DNA of 64,000 bases from an uncultured Oscillibacter sp. (GTDB taxonomy: Bacteria > Bacillota > Clostridia > Oscillospirales > Oscillospiraceae). A program made the position numbers and the translations under genes. Below are positions 39,511 through 61,522 of the stretch, one piece after another. The stretch spans positions 1 through 64,000 of the forward strand of contig NZ_CANTJS010000013.1 of the NCBI RefSeq assembly GCF_947654275.1. The letters are read 5' to 3'. Positions within the stretch are counted from its first letter, which is position 1. Each line of letters opens with the position of its first letter. The notes under the pieces are model-generated. The model was not told the origin of the DNA. It ran no database searches and saw only the letters and a list, made by a program, of their open reading frames with translations.

Positions 39511-42500
39511 ATGGCCTTCGTCCATCTGCACGTCCACACGGAATACAGTCTGCTGGACGGCGCATGCCGCATCAAGGAGCTGCCCAGGGTTGTCAGGGAG
39601 ATGGGACAGACGGCCTGTGCCATTACGGACCACGGCGTCATGTACGGCGCTGTGGAATTCTACAAGGCCTGTAAGGACGCAGGCGTCAAGCCTATCATCG
39701 GCTGCGAGGTCTATGTGACGCCCCAGGGCCGCTCCCGCCTCCAGAAGGAGCATGAATTCGACTCCGAGAGCCGGCATCTGGTGCTGCTCTGCGAGAACGA
39801 GACAGGCTACCGGAATCTCTCCTTCCTGGTCTCCGCAGCCTGGACCGAGGGGCACTATATCCGTCCCCGAATTGACAAGGCGCTTCTGCGGGAGCACCAC
39901 GAGGGTCTGATTGCCCTGTCGGCCTGTCTGGCGGGGGAGATTCCCCGGCGGCTCCGGAACGGGGAGTATGAGGCCGCCAGGGCCTACGCGGTGGAGATGG
40001 GGGAGCTCTTCGGCCCGGACCGCTTTTACCTGGAGCTCCAGGACCACGGCATCCGGGAACAGCGGACGGTGAATCAGGGCATCCTGCGGCTCCATCAGGA
40101 GACGGGCCTGCCCATGGTCTGCACCAACGACGCCCACTATCTCCGGAAGGAGGACGCGGAGACCCACGACGTTCTCCTCTGTATCCAGACCGGCAAGACC
40201 CTGGACGACGAGAACCGGATGCGCTACGAGCCCCGGAATTTCTACCTCCGCAGCGAGGCGGAGATGGAAGCGCTGTTCGGCGGCTATGAGGGGGCCCTGG
40301 AAAACACGGTCAAAATCGCGGAGATGTGCCATAAGGACTTCGTGTTCGGCAAGTATCACCTGCCGGAATTCCAGCTGCCGGAGGGCTATGACAGCTACAG
40401 CTACCTGAAAAAGCTCTGCGACGAGGGCTACCGGGAGCGCTACGGAGACGACGAGAGCCACCGGGGCCAGCTGGACTACGAGCTGGACATGATCCGCCGG
40501 ATGGGCTTCACGGACTATTTCCTGATTGTCTCCGACTTCGTGCGCTACGCCAAAGGGGTGGACATCCCCGTGGGCCCGGGCCGGGGCAGCGCGGCAGGCA
40601 GCGTGGTGAGCTACTGCCTCCGCATCACCGACGTGGACCCGGAGAAGTACGATCTCTATTTCGAGCGCTTCCTGAACCCGGAGCGTGTGAGCATGCCGGA
40701 TATCGACATGGACTTTGCCGATACCCGCCGGGACGAGGTGATTGACTACGTCCGCCGGAAATACGGCGCCGACCGGGTGGCCCAGATCGTCACCTTCGGC
40801 ACCATGGCCGCCCGGGCGGCGGTGCGGGACGTGGGGCGGGTGATGGGTCTGTCCTATGCCGACGTGGACGCCATCGCCAAGCAGATTCCCCAGCGGGACG
40901 GCAACAAATCCATCACGCTGGAGCGGGCCCTGACCCTCTCCAAGCCCCTTCGGGACATGTGCGAGTCCGACCCCGACGTGGCCCGGCTGATTGACACCGC
41001 CAAAAAGCTGGAGGGAATGCCCCGGAACGCCTCCACCCACGCCGCCGGCGTGGTGATTACCAAGCTGCCTGTGGTGGAGTACGTGCCCCTGTCCAAAAAC
41101 GACGACACCGTGGTCTGCCAGTATGAAAAGGACACCTTGGAGAAGCTGGGCCTTTTGAAGATGGACTTCCTGGGCCTGCGGAATTTGACGGTGCTGGACG
41201 ACGCGGTGAAGATGCTCCAGGAGGAGCGTCCGGACTTCCGCCTGGAGGACATCCCGGAGAACGACCCGGACACCTACGCCATGCTCTCCGCCGGAAAAAC
41301 CTCCGGCGTGTTTCAGATGGAATCCGGGGGCATGACGGACCTCTGCACCCGCCTGGGGCCCCGGAGCATCGAGGACATCACCGCCATCATCGCCCTGTTC
41401 CGCCCCGGCCCCATGGATTCCATTCCCCAGTTTCTGGAGAGCGCCAAAAATCCGGAGAAGGTCCGCTACGATCACCCGCTGCTGGAACCCATCCTCTCCA
41501 ATACCTACGGCTGCATCGTCTATCAGGAGCAGGTCATCAAAATCTTTCAGGAGCTGGCGGGCTACTCCCTGGGCCAGGCGGACATGGTGCGCCGGGCCAT
41601 GAGCAAAAAGCACGTGGAGGAGATTGAGAGCGAGCGGGAGGCCTTCCTCCACGGTGACAAGGAGAGAAACATTACAGGCTGTGTGGCGAGAGGGGTTCCG
41701 GAGAAGACAGCCCAGATTATCTACAATAAAATCTACGATTTTGCCGAGTACGCCTTCAACAAGGCCCACGCCGTTTCCTATGCGGTGCTGGCCTATCAGA
41801 CGGCCTGGTTCAAGTGCCATTTCCCCCGGGAGTATATCGCGGCTCTGCTGACGTCGGTGCTGAACAACACCGACAAAATCAAGGTGTATATTAAAGAGTG
41901 CCGGGACAGCGGCATCCCTCTGCTGCCGCCGGACATCAACCGCTCCACCGACCGTTTCACCGTCGAGGCGGACGGGATCCGCTTCGGCCTGGCCGCCATC
42001 AAGAACATTGGCCGGGGCTTCATACAGACAGTCATGAGAGAGCGGGAGGAGAAGGGGCCCTTTACCTCTCTCCATGACTTCTGCCGCCGCATGACCGGCA
42101 GCGACGTCAACAAGCGGGCCCTGGAAAACCTGATTCGCTCCGGCGCCTTTGACGCCTCCGGCGCACGCCGCTCCCAGCTGCTGCGGGTCTATGAAACCGT
42201 GCTGGACGCCGCCGCCAACCGGCAGCGCCAGAATCTGGAGGGCCAGATGGATTTCTTCTCCATGGCCGCGGAGGACGGCGGGACCCAGGCGGAGGAAGCG
42301 CCTCTTCCGGATATCCCGGAATTTACCCCCCAGGAGCTGCTGAGCATGGAGAAGGGGGCCACGGGGCTCTATCTCTCCGGACATCCCATGGACGCCTACC
42401 GGGACATTGTCCGCCGTCTGCAAATCCCCGCTGTGGGGTCCATTACTCAGGACCTGGCCCAGGAGAACGGGCCCAGCCGCTTTGCCGACGGCCAGCAGGT

Positions 42501-43008
42501 CACCCTGGCGGGGGTTGTGGCCTCCAGCAAGACCAAGACCACCAGGAACAACTCGCTGATGGCCTATGTCACCCTGGAGGATGAAACCGGCTCCATAGAA
42601 ATGCTGTGCTTCAGCCGGACCCTGGACACCTGCGGCTCCTATCTGCGGGAGGGGGAGGCCATTACGGCAAAGGGCCGTCTCTCCGTCCGGGACGAGAAGG
42701 CCCCGCAGCTGATGTGCGACACGGCCTATCCTCTGGCCAATGCCGAAGCCGGTCTGCCGGAACCGGCGCGGGGGGCGAGACCGGACCGGCAGGAGGCGGG
42801 AGAGGTTCTGTTCCTGAAATTCCCGTCCCTGGAGCACCCCTCTCTCCGTCATATGAAGCTGGTGTTTTCCATGTTTCCCGGTACGACGCCGGTGAAAATG
42901 CGCATGGCGGACACCCGGAAAATCTATGTCACACGGGTGCTGCTCCACAAGGCCCTGGTTCAGGAGGCGCGGGACACCCTGGGAGAGGAAAACGTGGTGG
43001 TCCGGTAG
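39511..43008 (+). CDS. dnaE: DNA polymerase III alpha subunit
   Basis: A 1165-aa DnaE. The N-terminal PHP domain (FVHLHVHTEYSLLDGA) is followed by the polymerase core with GPGRGSAAGSVVSYC and the catalytic Asp triplet region PDIDMDFADTRRDEVIDYV, the beta-clamp-proximal region and a C-terminal OB fold (VTLAGVVASSKTKTTRNN). In Firmicutes DnaE works with PolC in lagging-strand synthesis and repair. Length and motifs are normal. It ends at repeat family A. Confidence 0.97.
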   Translation: MAFVHLHVHTEYSLLDGACRIKELPRVVREMGQTACAITDHGVMYGAVEFYKACKDAGVKPIIGCEVYVTPQGRSRLQKEHEFDSESRHLVLLCENETGYRNLSFLVSAAWTEGHYIRPRIDKALLREHHEGLIALSACLAGEIPRRLRNGEYEAARAYAVEMGELFGPDRFYLELQDHGIREQRTVNQGILRLHQETGLPMVCTNDAHYLRKEDAETHDVLLCIQTGKTLDDENRMRYEPRNFYLRSEAEMEALFGGYEGALENTVKIAEMCHKDFVFGKYHLPEFQLPEGYDSYSYLKKLCDEGYRERYGDDESHRGQLDYELDMIRRMGFTDYFLIVSDFVRYAKGVDIPVGPGRGSAAGSVVSYCLRITDVDPEKYDLYFERFLNPERVSMPDIDMDFADTRRDEVIDYVRRKYGADRVAQIVTFGTMAARAAVRDVGRVMGLSYADVDAIAKQIPQRDGNKSITLERALTLSKPLRDMCESDPDVARLIDTAKKLEGMPRNASTHAAGVVITKLPVVEYVPLSKNDDTVVCQYEKDTLEKLGLLKMDFLGLRNLTVLDDAVKMLQEERPDFRLEDIPENDPDTYAMLSAGKTSGVFQMESGGMTDLCTRLGPRSIEDITAIIALFRPGPMDSIPQFLESAKNPEKVRYDHPLLEPILSNTYGCIVYQEQVIKIFQELAGYSLGQADMVRRAMSKKHVEEIESEREAFLHGDKERNITGCVARGVPEKTAQIIYNKIYDFAEYAFNKAHAVSYAVLAYQTAWFKCHFPREYIAALLTSVLNNTDKIKVYIKECRDSGIPLLPPDINRSTDRFTVEADGIRFGLAAIKNIGRGFIQTVMREREEKGPFTSLHDFCRRMTGSDVNKRALENLIRSGAFDASGARRSQLLRVYETVLDAAANRQRQNLEGQMDFFSMAAEDGGTQAEEAPLPDIPEFTPQELLSMEKGATGLYLSGHPMDAYRDIVRRLQIPAVGSITQDLAQENGPSRFADGQQVTLAGVVASSKTKTTRNNSLMAYVTLEDETGSIEMLCFSRTLDTCGSYLREGEAITAKGRLSVRDEKAPQLMCDTAYPLANAEAGLPEPARGARPDRQEAGEVLFLKFPSLEHPSLRHMKLVFSMFPGTTPVKMRMADTRKIYVTRVLLHKALVQEARDTLGEENVVVR

Positions 43009-43027: not shown

Positions 43028-43056
43028 AAAGGACTCAGCCGGGGGCTGAGTCCTTT
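43028..43056 (+). terminator. Terminator hairpin after dnaE
   Basis: AAAGGACTCAGCC / GGCTGAGTCCTTT. It forms the left part of repeat family A copy 1. Confidence 0.8.
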
Positions 43057-43215
43057 CAGCCTGTCGAAAAAGTCTTTTCGACAGGCTGAGCAAGTTTACA
43101 AAACTTCAAAAAAGTTTTGTAAACTTATTGATTGAACATGAAAGACACCCCTGATGGGTTTCTTTCATACTATCTTCCTTTCCGAAAACTAAAAGCAATC
43201 CGTTTTTTCGACAGT
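43028..43215 (+). repeat. Intergenic repeat family A, copy 1
   Basis: Order: a terminator hairpin; a 13-bp-arm hairpin AGCCTGTCGAAAA / TTTTCGACAGGCT (43058-43087); GCAAGTTT; a hairpin GTTTACAAAACTT / AAGTTTTGTAAAC; then ACCCCTGATGGGTTTCTTTC, ATCTTCCTTTCCGA and TTTTTTCGACAG. The same order occurs on the minus strand at 59529-59712. Both lie between convergent genes. Confidence 0.8.
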
Positions 43216-43223
43216 CTCCTTTC

Positions 43224-58577: not shown

Positions 58578-59480
58578 TTGAAAAAGAGAGAGGGGATCAA
58601 CACGGACGATCTGAAACGCTATGGCGACTATCTGGCAAATGAGCGCCATGCCTCCCAGAATACAACGACCGCCTACCTGCGGGACGTGAGGCAGTTTGCC
58701 GACTATCTGCGGGGACAGGGCCGGGAGCTGCGGGAGGCCACCGGGGAGACGATTCAGGGCTACATGATGTGGATGATGAATCGCGGAAAATCCGCCGCGT
58801 CCGCCACCCGCTCCCTGGCGTCCATCAAGTCCTTTTACAATTACCTGGTGTCCGCCGGCGTCCTGCGGACCAGCCCGGCCAGGGGCGTGGTCTCCGCCAG
58901 GGTGGAACGGAAATATCCGGAGATTCTCACCAGCAGGGAAGTGGAGCTTTTTTTGGAACAGCCACGCTGTGTGGACGCCAAGGGCTTCCGGGACCACGCA
59001 ATGCTGGAACTGCTCTATGCCACGGGCATTCGTGTCAGCGAGCTGATAGACCTGGATTTGGACGACCTGAATCTTCCCGCCGGTTTCATCCACTGCGCCA
59101 GCAAGGGACGGGAGCGGATGATTCCGCTGTATCACACCGCCGTGAAAGCCCTTCAGGACTACATCTGGAAGATTCGCCCCCAGCTGGTGGCCGACGGGGA
59201 GGAACCGGCGCTGTTTGTCAACATGAACGGCGAGCGCATGACCCGTCAGGGCTTTTGGAAAATCATCAAGTTCTACCAGGAAAAGGCGGGCATTGAGAAG
59301 GAGATCACCCCCCACACCCTGCGGCACTCCTTTGCGGCCCACCTGCTGGAAAACGGGGCGGACCTGCGTTCCATTCAGGAGATGCTGGGCCATGCGGACA
59401 TTTCCTCCACCCAGATTTATACCCACGTGGTGAAGCGCCAGCTGAAGGACGTTTATCAGAAGGCCCACCCCAGGGCGTAG
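58578..59480 (+). CDS. XerD-like tyrosine recombinase
   Basis: A 300-aa integrase-family recombinase. The N-terminal SAM-like core-binding domain (RYGDYLANERHASQNTTTAYLRD) is followed by the catalytic domain with Arg in GIRVSELIDL, Lys in SKGRERMIPL, HTLRHSFAAHLL, GHADISSTQIY with the nucleophile Tyr. Length and position after the SpoIIM-like gene fit XerD, used for chromosome dimer resolution at dif. TTG 58578 follows the previous stop directly; the only purine-rich site (GAGAGGGG) lies inside the frame, so the start is uncertain. Confidence 0.85.
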   Translation: MKKREGINTDDLKRYGDYLANERHASQNTTTAYLRDVRQFADYLRGQGRELREATGETIQGYMMWMMNRGKSAASATRSLASIKSFYNYLVSAGVLRTSPARGVVSARVERKYPEILTSREVELFLEQPRCVDAKGFRDHAMLELLYATGIRVSELIDLDLDDLNLPAGFIHCASKGRERMIPLYHTAVKALQDYIWKIRPQLVADGEEPALFVNMNGERMTRQGFWKIIKFYQEKAGIEKEITPHTLRHSFAAHLLENGADLRSIQEMLGHADISSTQIYTHVVKRQLKDVYQKAHPRA

Positions 59481-59528: not shown

Positions 59529-59712
59529 AAGCGCCCTCCACTAAGGAGGGCGCTTCAGCTTGTCAAAAAACAGTACATGTAAAAGCATCGGAAAGGAAGA
59601 TGGAAAGAAACCCATCAGGGGTTCCTTACTTCCCACGGGTTCTGAAAACTTGCACAGGCTGTCGAAAATACTTTTTCGACAGCCTGAGCGCCCTCCAAAA
59701 GGAGGGCGCTTT
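59529..59712 (-). repeat. Intergenic repeat family A, copy 2
   Basis: On the minus strand: terminator hairpin AGCGCCCTCC/GGAGGGCGCT, hairpin AGGCTGTCGAAAA / TTTTCGACAGCCT (59658-59687), GCAAGTTTT, ACCCCTGATGGGTTTCTTTC, ATCTTCCTTTCCGA, TTTTTTGACA, and a second GCGCCCTCC hairpin. It matches copy 1 in order and orientation. It lies between convergent xerD-like and cotH-like genes and supplies terminators to both. Confidence 0.8.
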
Positions 59713-59716
59713 TGTG

Positions 59717-61522
59717 TTATCCCCGCCGTCTGAACCGCCAGGCAAAGGCCAGCCCCGCCAGAAGCGCCGCCCCGGAGACCCCCAGAGGAAGAAGACCGTC
59801 CGGGGACGCGGAGGGAAACGCCTCCGGCGGCGCGCCGCCGGGAGGGTCCGTCCCCCGAAGCGGGAGCGCCTCGCTTCCCTCCGCGGCCTGCCAAAGCCCG
59901 TCGTCCCCGGGCCGCCTCATCTCGCCTCTCTGGCCCTCCATCCCGGCGCCGCCGCGGTTCATGGTTCCCATATCCGTCAGAACCAGACCGGAGGCGTCAA
60001 CCAGGGCGGAGGCGTTGGCGCTCTGGCCCGCCTCGGTGGAGGGGATGGACCCGTCCAGCTGACCCATGACGCTCTCGGAGCGGAGACGGCAGAAGGCTTT
60101 CAGTGTCTCCACGCCGGTCTCAAAGTCCTCATAGCTGTAAAACTTCGTGGGGTCCTTCTCCACATAGGGCGCAATCAGTTTGGCGGCGGCGTCGATGATG
60201 GAAGCGGCGTCCACCGTTTCCAGAAACGCACGGAAATACTGATGATACAGCTCCGTGTATTCCGGGCTGTCAAACATCCAGTCCGACATGGGCCGGCTGT
60301 CGCCGCCGGACACCGGCGTGTCAATGGGGGCGTTTACCTCCGCGGTGGCGTCGGCGCTCTGGAAGGTTCCAAAGGCCAGATTATAGTCCCAGGGAATCAT
60401 GGACAGCTGTCCGTCCTTTTCGTAGAGATAGTAATTGTGCACCATGGAACCAGTATAGCTGTCCCCGTTGCGGACGAAGTTGTGTACCACGAAGTAGCGG
60501 AGCACCTGGTCGATATCCAGAACCTCCTCCAGATTCTCGCCGGCGCTGAGGGCCTTCAGGGAAGCGATCAGCCGGGCCTGGTCCGCCTCTGTGACGTCGG
60601 TTTTGGCGTTTTCAAAGATGTTGGAATAGCTGGCCGGGTCGTCGTCGATATAGCGGAGCTTCACGTCGTCGCTCCCCATGCCGCCGGAGAAAAAGCCTCT
60701 CCCGCCGCCCATTTCTTCAGGGGGTTTTTCAAAGGCTCCGGACTCAGCGGGAGGAGGGGAGCCGTCGAGAGAGCCGCCGGGGAAGCCATCGGGGAAGCCG
60801 TCTGAAAAACCGCCGGACTCCTCCGGCGGGGAAGGAAAACCGCCCCTGTCTCCCGGGAAATCATCCATATTGAAGTTCCTGCCGTTGCCCCGGCCCCCTC
60901 CGAAGCTCATGCTGTCCGGCTTATAGAGCTCACCGGCGTCCTTGCCGTAGTTCCGCCGGAGGAATCCGTCCTCCACGCCCTCCGCCGCCAGATAGAGCCC
61001 CCAGTCCTCTCCGTTGACGGTGATGTAAATATAGGAGCTCAGAGGCGCGGCCGCGCCGAAGGCGTTCATCAGCTGGTAGGTAAGGTAGTCCTTCATATAG
61101 GTGGTGTCCTGAATGATATTGTTCAGGCTCAGCTTGTCCAGACCGTAATAGGTTCGGGTGCTGTCATAGTGGTCGAATTCCAGCTTGAAGCTGTACCGGC
61201 TGCTGTCCATGGCGGAAACCATGCTGAGGGACGTGTTGCCCTTGGCCCGGATGCCGACATTATGATAGGACTCCCCATCAATCACCACAGAGCAGGAGGC
61301 GTATTCCTCGTTTTCGCAGGTCTCTATGAAGCCGTCCCAATCGTCCATGACGATATCCAGCGTATGAACCCGGCCTGTGTCAAAGAGGCGGGTCTCGTAG
61401 CCCATGACCCTGAAGGCAGGCTGAAGCCCCAGGGATTCTCCATTCATGAACAGAAGCGTTGCCAGCAGCGTCAGAGCCAGAGCGGCGGCGCAGAGCCGGT
61501 CCATGTATTTGTGGGTGGACAT
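59717..61522 (-). CDS. CotH kinase family protein
   Basis: A 601-aa exported protein with an N-terminal anchor (LCAAALALTLLATLLFMNG). The CotH domain runs from HTLDIVMDDWDGFIETCENE through IRAKGNTSLSMV, LDKLSLNNIIQDTTYMKDYLTY to MIPWDYNLAFGTFQ. An insert of about 80 residues rich in Gly, Phe, Pro and Ser lies in the middle (FPGDRGGFPSPPEESGGF). A C-terminal helix with an Arg tail (GLAFAWRFRRRG) could anchor it a second time. CotH proteins are kinases of spore coat proteins in B. subtilis; here it is in an operon with VTC and DUF4956. The RBS overlaps the end of DUF4956. Confidence 0.9.
   Translation of the reverse strand: MSTHKYMDRLCAAALALTLLATLLFMNGESLGLQPAFRVMGYETRLFDTGRVHTLDIVMDDWDGFIETCENEEYASCSVVIDGESYHNVGIRAKGNTSLSMVSAMDSSRYSFKLEFDHYDSTRTYYGLDKLSLNNIIQDTTYMKDYLTYQLMNAFGAAAPLSSYIYITVNGEDWGLYLAAEGVEDGFLRRNYGKDAGELYKPDSMSFGGGRGNGRNFNMDDFPGDRGGFPSPPEESGGFSDGFPDGFPGGSLDGSPPPAESGAFEKPPEEMGGGRGFFSGGMGSDDVKLRYIDDDPASYSNIFENAKTDVTEADQARLIASLKALSAGENLEEVLDIDQVLRYFVVHNFVRNGDSYTGSMVHNYYLYEKDGQLSMIPWDYNLAFGTFQSADATAEVNAPIDTPVSGGDSRPMSDWMFDSPEYTELYHQYFRAFLETVDAASIIDAAAKLIAPYVEKDPTKFYSYEDFETGVETLKAFCRLRSESVMGQLDGSIPSTEAGQSANASALVDASGLVLTDMGTMNRGGAGMEGQRGEMRRPGDDGLWQAAEGSEALPLRGTDPPGGAPPEAFPSASPDGLLPLGVSGAALLAGLAFAWRFRRRG

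Follow-up and report, generated by a model that had tools for sequence, protein, structure and literature searches.

A dispersed gene-less repeat at gene 3' ends in Oscillibacter, very probably a non-autonomous IS1182-type element inserted at intrinsic terminators

Introduction

In the 64,000-nucleotide stretch of uncultured Oscillibacter sp. DNA analysed here (the window), a structured non-coding sequence of ~160 bp occurs twice next to terminator hairpins, which raises the question of what this repeat is and how it came to lie at the ends of genes. The sequences directly display a family of such repeats, bounded by terminal repeats, located at gene 3' ends, flanked by duplicated hairpins and missing from the corresponding empty sites of a sister genome. 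We conclude that the repeat is very probably a MITE-type, non-autonomous member of the IS1182 family of transposable elements, which would be mobilised in trans and which targets intrinsic terminators. The IS1182 family itself is known, and the repeat is best read, from its sequence, as a new gene-less branch of it; in the open-access literature we have found no description of a terminator-targeting MITE of this sort.

Copies and distribution of the repeat

Within the window CCCCTGATGGGTTTCTTTC is found exactly twice against 0.01 expected occurrences, and the arrangement CTGTCGAAAA-N-TTTTCGACAG also occurs twice, none being expected. The original prediction had described the two copies as one ordered array on opposite strands, and both were located where it had placed them and in that order; its remark that the terminator stems differ while the rest is conserved is also true between the window copies. 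The terminator hairpin does have its place in that order, although it is host target DNA and lies outside the repeat (Table 1). The BLASTN search proposed at the time, when run on the own genome (a 3.05 Mb draft in 111 contigs, 93% complete), returned 50 matches that correspond to about 20 copies and fragments, and the further copies that had been anticipated therefore exist. Related copies exist elsewhere: in one sample of genomes they are present in 14 of the 18 others of the same genus (Oscillospiraceae MAGs) and in 0 of 11 outside the genus, so that 15 of the 30 genomes searched, the own one included, have matches and all belong to one genus. The named records that contain the core motif are from Oscillospiraceae/Oscillibacter and uncultured Clostridia MAGs. 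A search of the repeat against Rfam, at gathering and relaxed thresholds, yielded no credible family and nothing above the gathering score. Several properties that define MITEs were found, namely a length of 130-220 bp without a transposase ORF, terminal inverted repeats (CAGSYTGTCRAAAAA at the left end and the inverse of CAGSYTGTCRAAAAA at the right), a flanking target-site duplication and empty sites.

Location at gene ends

Gene orientation around the copies was scored with a codon-usage gene caller. Of 42 scorable copies, 25 have convergent neighbours, 15 have codirectional ones and 2 have divergent ones, and none is inside an ORF; all junctions at the same loci, a baseline that includes the occupied ones, comprise 91 codirectional, 35 convergent and 15 divergent. 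The bias to gene 3' ends, which had been put forward as a check, is thus strong. The placement between convergent genes that had been predicted applies to both window copies and to most of the scorable ones, but a position just downstream of a stop codon is the better rule, the nearest stop codon being typically 30-50 nt away (~40 nt).

Table 1. Features of the window around the two copies of the repeat
Feature	Position	Strand	Remarks
Long-ORF gene, upstream of copy 1	39511..43008	+	Translation presumably a DNA polymerase III alpha subunit
Target of copy 1, terminator hairpin of the host, AAAGGACTCAGCCGGGGGCTGAGTCCTTT	43028..43056	+	Only left copy present; single hairpin also in the sister's empty site
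Copy 1 (putative MITE), 162 bp, CAGCCTGTCGAAAAAG ... TTTTTTCGACAGTCTC	43057..43218	+	Absent from orthologous site in sister G097
Copy 1, left end, H1	43057..43088	+	Perfect palindrome of terminal repeat and its inverse
Copy 1, H2 (AAGTTTACAAAACTT...AAGTTTTGTAAACTT)	43092..43126	+	
Copy 1, H3 (ATGAAAGACACCCCTGATGGGTTTCTTTCAT)	43138..43168	+	
Copy 1, core CTTCCTTYCCG	43174..43184	+	Followed by ~20-25 nt hypervariable spacer
Copy 1, right terminal inverted repeat TTTTTTCGACAGTCT	43203..43217	+	
Copy 1, short direct repeat CTTT	43219..43222	+	Matches base of left hairpin
Convergent gene across copy 1, 191 aa	43224..43799	-	
Gene at one side of copy 2	58578..59480	+	Translation taken to be a XerC/D-type tyrosine recombinase
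Copy 2, right hairpin copy (AAGCGCCCTCC TTAGT GGAGGGCGCTT)	59529..59555	-	
Copy 2 (putative MITE), 130 bp	59557..59686	-	
Copy 2, left hairpin copy (AAGCGCCCTCC TTTT GGAGGGCGCT)	59687..59711	-	
Convergent gene across copy 2	59717..61522	-	Translation presumably a CotH-like protein

Anatomy of the element

Read 5' to 3', the element consists of a hairpin H1, the dinucleotide GC, a second hairpin H2, a linker with GATT, a third hairpin H3, the core CTTCCTTYCCG, a spacer and the right terminal repeat, TTTTTCGACA(G/A)NCT. In H1 the terminal repeat is followed by its own inverse to give a near-perfect palindrome (CAGGCTGTCGAAAAAG...CTTTTCGACAGCCTG), H3 contains ACCCCTGATGGGT, and the core is nearly invariant and is followed by a hypervariable spacer of ~20-25 nt. 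A role of this spacer as target guide was considered and rejected, because within a subfamily the spacer is common to the copies and yet their targets differ. The shorter window copy 2 has lost ~30 nt internally, including the 3' arm of H2, and the terminator hairpin flanks it on both sides. At copy 1 the full right copy of the hairpin is missing and the right direct repeat measures 4-7 bp, from CTTT up to TCCTTTC according to the position chosen for the end, so that either the duplication was short there or the second hairpin has been lost.

Duplication of whole terminator hairpins

The sequence directly to the left of the initial CAG recurs directly to the right of the right terminal repeat over 22-45 bp, and in almost every case this duplicated flank is a terminator stem-loop, a different one at each locus. 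The duplication is clear in 25 of the 27 copies with both ends pinned, with identities of 36/36 (L082), 35/35 (L085) and 32/32 (L035, L081 and L037). Hairpins flank both sides in 47 of the 50 full-length copies, and by our own count the two are visibly identical in origin at about 37; in these 47 the identity of left and right hairpins averages 0.80 at one locus against 0.43 across loci, and reaches at least 0.8 in 32 of 47 same-locus pairs versus 5 of 2162 mismatched pairs. In older copies the two hairpins differ mainly in the loop, and a minority of copies, including window copy 1 and L002, are without a duplicated hairpin. The orientation of the element relative to the T- or A-tract evidences no clear preference among the 47 copies (26 vs 24). 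The hairpin sequence is specific to the locus and is duplicated when the element inserts, and the hairpin is therefore not carried by the element. The original prediction had left open whether the repeat inserts at terminators or carries them; it inserts at them, the hairpins being locus-specific and duplicated and the empty site holding one host hairpin.

We have examined such empty sites, another of the checks proposed at the outset, by searching the flanks of ten own copies in the sister genome G097 (record CAJTFK; the same genome as G067, as judged from identical PF05598 coordinates), where the matching flanks are mostly 95-100% identical to those of the own genome. Six sites are without the element in the sister, namely those of L001 (window copy 1), L002, L005, L008, L009 and L011. 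The cleanest is L011, at which GCGGC-AGGAGAGGCGTTTCCGCCTCTCCT-GTTTTC is present once in the sister versus a hairpin-element-hairpin arrangement in the own genome. The element of L012 is common to both genomes, and at the L003 site the sister has a double element. Movement of the element after the separation of the two species is the simplest explanation; the alternative, a loss from the sister, is less likely in view of the single intact hairpin that remains there.

IS1182 elements with the same ends

Transposases of the IS1182 family in the genus and in the sister genome have the same ends (CAGSCTGTCGAAAAAGTC), which abut terminator hairpins; ends common to the repeat and to IS1182 transposase genes were found at L112, L113, L165, L177, L178, L180, L239, L241 and L245. 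At L112, L113, L177, L178 and L180 a hairpin immediately followed by CAG[GC]CTGTCGAAAAAGTC directly precedes the IS1182 gene, and L118 and L245 have matching IS1182 right ends against hairpins. The sister genome with the empty sites carries IS1182 genes (PF05598) whose left ends join a hairpin to CAGGCTGTCGAAAAAGTC, and its IS1182 copies with matching terminal repeats run into contig ends. The domain PF05598, which worked as a probe, is present in 27 of 86 genomes of the genus, PF13751 being weak in relatives. L165 is an IS1182-type copy that extends end to end, with the same terminal repeat and a 31-bp hairpin duplication (30/31) and with a frameshifted transposase gene; an intact full-length IS1182 partner with the exact terminal repeat was not seen among the genus genomes examined. 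The transposases of L165, L166 and L113 have NF033551 as best match, that of L166 scoring 440 bits where the cut-off is 270. A second IS1182 subgroup, in G094, has an intact transposase of 484 aa (NF033551, 440 bits) and whole-hairpin duplications at L166, L168, L170, L171, L173 and L176, and the IS1182 copy L183 has a duplication of 25/25. Given the duplications at L165, at the G094 loci and at L183, duplicating the hairpin is a habit of the IS1182 elements of the genus that is common to the small repeat. Two further IS1182-type copies, L062 and L126, have terminator hairpins of different sequence on their two sides, perhaps through recombination between copies.

The repeat thus has the features by which IS1182 membership is judged, i.e. 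shared ends and a palindromic target and/or long direct repeats of variable length. From the shared ends and the co-occurrence in the sister genome, mobilisation in trans by an IS1182 transposase can be inferred. An IS1182 transposase (PF05598, PF13751) was not found in the own 93% complete draft, from which multi-copy insertion sequences may drop in assembly, and the gene may have been either lost or dropped in this way. This absence speaks against the IS1182 reading, as do the frameshift of L165 and the contig ends that cut off the sister's copies, the minority of copies without a duplicated hairpin and the unlike hairpins of L062 and L126. The own genome has two equally scoring, identical Y1 (PF01797) transposase genes (G000:C27:22754-23110 and C31:10460-10816). 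Ten regions with solo CTGTC[AG]AAAA sites of the own genome were examined as possible ends of insertion sequences; none was such an end, and one was a solo H1 palindrome.

Structure of the internal hairpins and alternative explanations

A conserved array of three hairpins could also belong to a host small or regulatory RNA gene lying between bidirectional terminators and spread by gene duplication. Indeed, H1-H3 are conserved with strong covariation: in H1 and H3, 10 pairs have compensatory changes, and both sides have changed in 38 cells compared with 11.6 for shuffles (0 of 500), the number of independent changes being limited by the relatedness of the copies. The invariant core beside a hypervariable spacer likewise indicates a stronger constraint than a MITE in decay would require. 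However, H1 and H3 have no one-sided (GU) changes, and the pairs counted across H1-H3 of 21 copies are Watson-Crick in 885 cases and GU in 6, a deletion having left the H2/H3 of one copy unparsed; because a constraint at the RNA level normally leaves more GU, this suggests that it is in DNA rather than RNA that the pairing is important or is restored by repair. Flanks that are unrelated between copies, a flanking hairpin that is duplicated and locus-specific, the existence of empty sites, ends equal to those of an insertion sequence and the lack of an Rfam family also argue against an RNA gene, which we consider very unlikely.

Two other routes of movement were weighed against the IS1182-type transposition that we favour. 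In one of them the element is the same, but the duplication made on moving has a fixed length of 4-7 bp at the foot of the hairpin and is extended to the long form later; the direct repeats of only 4-8 bp at window copy 1 and L002 are what it predicts, whereas the many perfect duplications of 25-36 bp, whose length follows the hairpin, and the single hairpin at the empty L011 site make it extremely improbable. The least probable of all is that the repeat is of the REP/PATE type and owes its movement to a Y1 transposase (IS200/IS605 or RAYT), an enzyme that also acts on hairpins. The own genome would offer such an enzyme, having the two identical PF01797 copies and no IS1182 gene that was found; to our knowledge, however, Y1 elements have neither a target-site duplication nor terminal inverted repeats of this sort, while in the repeat a duplication of 22-45 bp is the rule and the ends match IS1182 elements.

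Comparison with known systems and proposed mechanism

Within the IS1182 family, IS1272 and TnSha1 target hairpins or terminators (PMC5678879, PMC4923244), and these staphylococcal elements resemble the repeat in having a stem-loop target, often a terminator, without preference for a primary sequence. They differ in the outcome: IS1272 deletes the stem-loop (PMC5678879) and TnSha1 likewise trims it (PMC4923244), neither of them generating a duplication, whereas the repeat duplicates it. A stem-loop-replacing transposition of the IS1272 type was thus discarded for the repeat, the hairpin being retained and duplicated. Duplication of the whole stem-loop corresponds to 'pathway b' of a published model, in which it was drawn only as a possibility (PMC5678879); the repeat documents it by empty sites and many copies. 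The range of 2-60 bp given in ISfinder for the direct repeats of IS1182 (PMC7335449) fits the variable hairpin duplication. With IS1182 insertion sequences (NCBIfam NF033551; PF05598 with PF13751/PF01609) the repeat shares terminal repeats, a terminator or hairpin target and long variable direct repeats; unlike them it has 160 bp and no transposase gene, its left end is a closed palindrome of the terminal repeat, and its interior is occupied by two further hairpins and a conserved core. The pneumococcal SPRITE, RUP and BOX elements, bacterial MITEs covered by a review in whose text IS1182 is absent (PMC10969869), are equally short, non-coding, intergenic, dispersed and structured, but SPRITE carries a terminator-like sequence, whereas the repeat uses the host terminator as target.

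We propose that an IS1182 transposase, supplied in trans, would recognise the ends CAGSYTGTCRAAAAA and, instead of choosing its target by sequence, would use an intrinsic terminator in its extruded form of hairpin or putative cruciform, both 5' feet of which it would attack; since the duplication has the length of the target stem-loop, the strands would be cut at the two hairpin feet. The left hairpin copy abuts CAG and the right one keeps its T-tract, so that after insertion the distal copy retains a U-tract in each direction. Termination of both neighbouring genes should therefore survive, and with a hairpin and its U-tract still closing each of them, gene ends would be a safe landing site at which a gene-less element could spread without destroying terminators. 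A rather doubtful extension is that the IS1182-type transposase reads DNA shape at element ends and target alike, structure guiding it without any target sequence; if true, the ends and interior would be kept as perfect DNA hairpins, the whole length of the target hairpin would set the size of the duplication, and the element would be a minimal substrate of such a system. The repeat is also a warning that, where identical terminators enclose a structured intergenic repeat, the pair can be the scar of an insertion and not evidence of a small-RNA gene.

Variant copies

The terminal inverted repeats, the target-site duplication and the IS1182 link were absent from the original prediction. The loops of the duplicated hairpins appear inverted at L065, L041 and L088, as if the stem-loop had been flipped, and the orthologous terminator loops of L005 and the sister locus L216 also look inverted (e.g. 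ATTT vs AAAT). At L075 and L221 (G097:C32) the sister has two tandem elements at one terminator, whereas the own genome has only one element at this site. A solo 33-bp palindrome, composed of the terminal repeat and its inverse only, lies right after a gene at L024 (G000:C44:20666-20698), and no hairpin duplication is seen around it. At L026 (G000:C5:73925-73979) a gene 3' end (gaaaacagagagcaaaaccgcgctggtggacgcgctgcggaagctgtaa) has been duplicated, and a remnant of the element separates its two copies. Finally, an independent palindromic repeat of 55 bp (ACCCGTAAAGGGCACGCCGCATCCCTAAGCGGCAGAGCCGCCAAGGGCTGCGCT) is found within H3 at L015 (G000:C1:16145-16365), L007, L009, L014 and L006, and is also dispersed alone across the genus.
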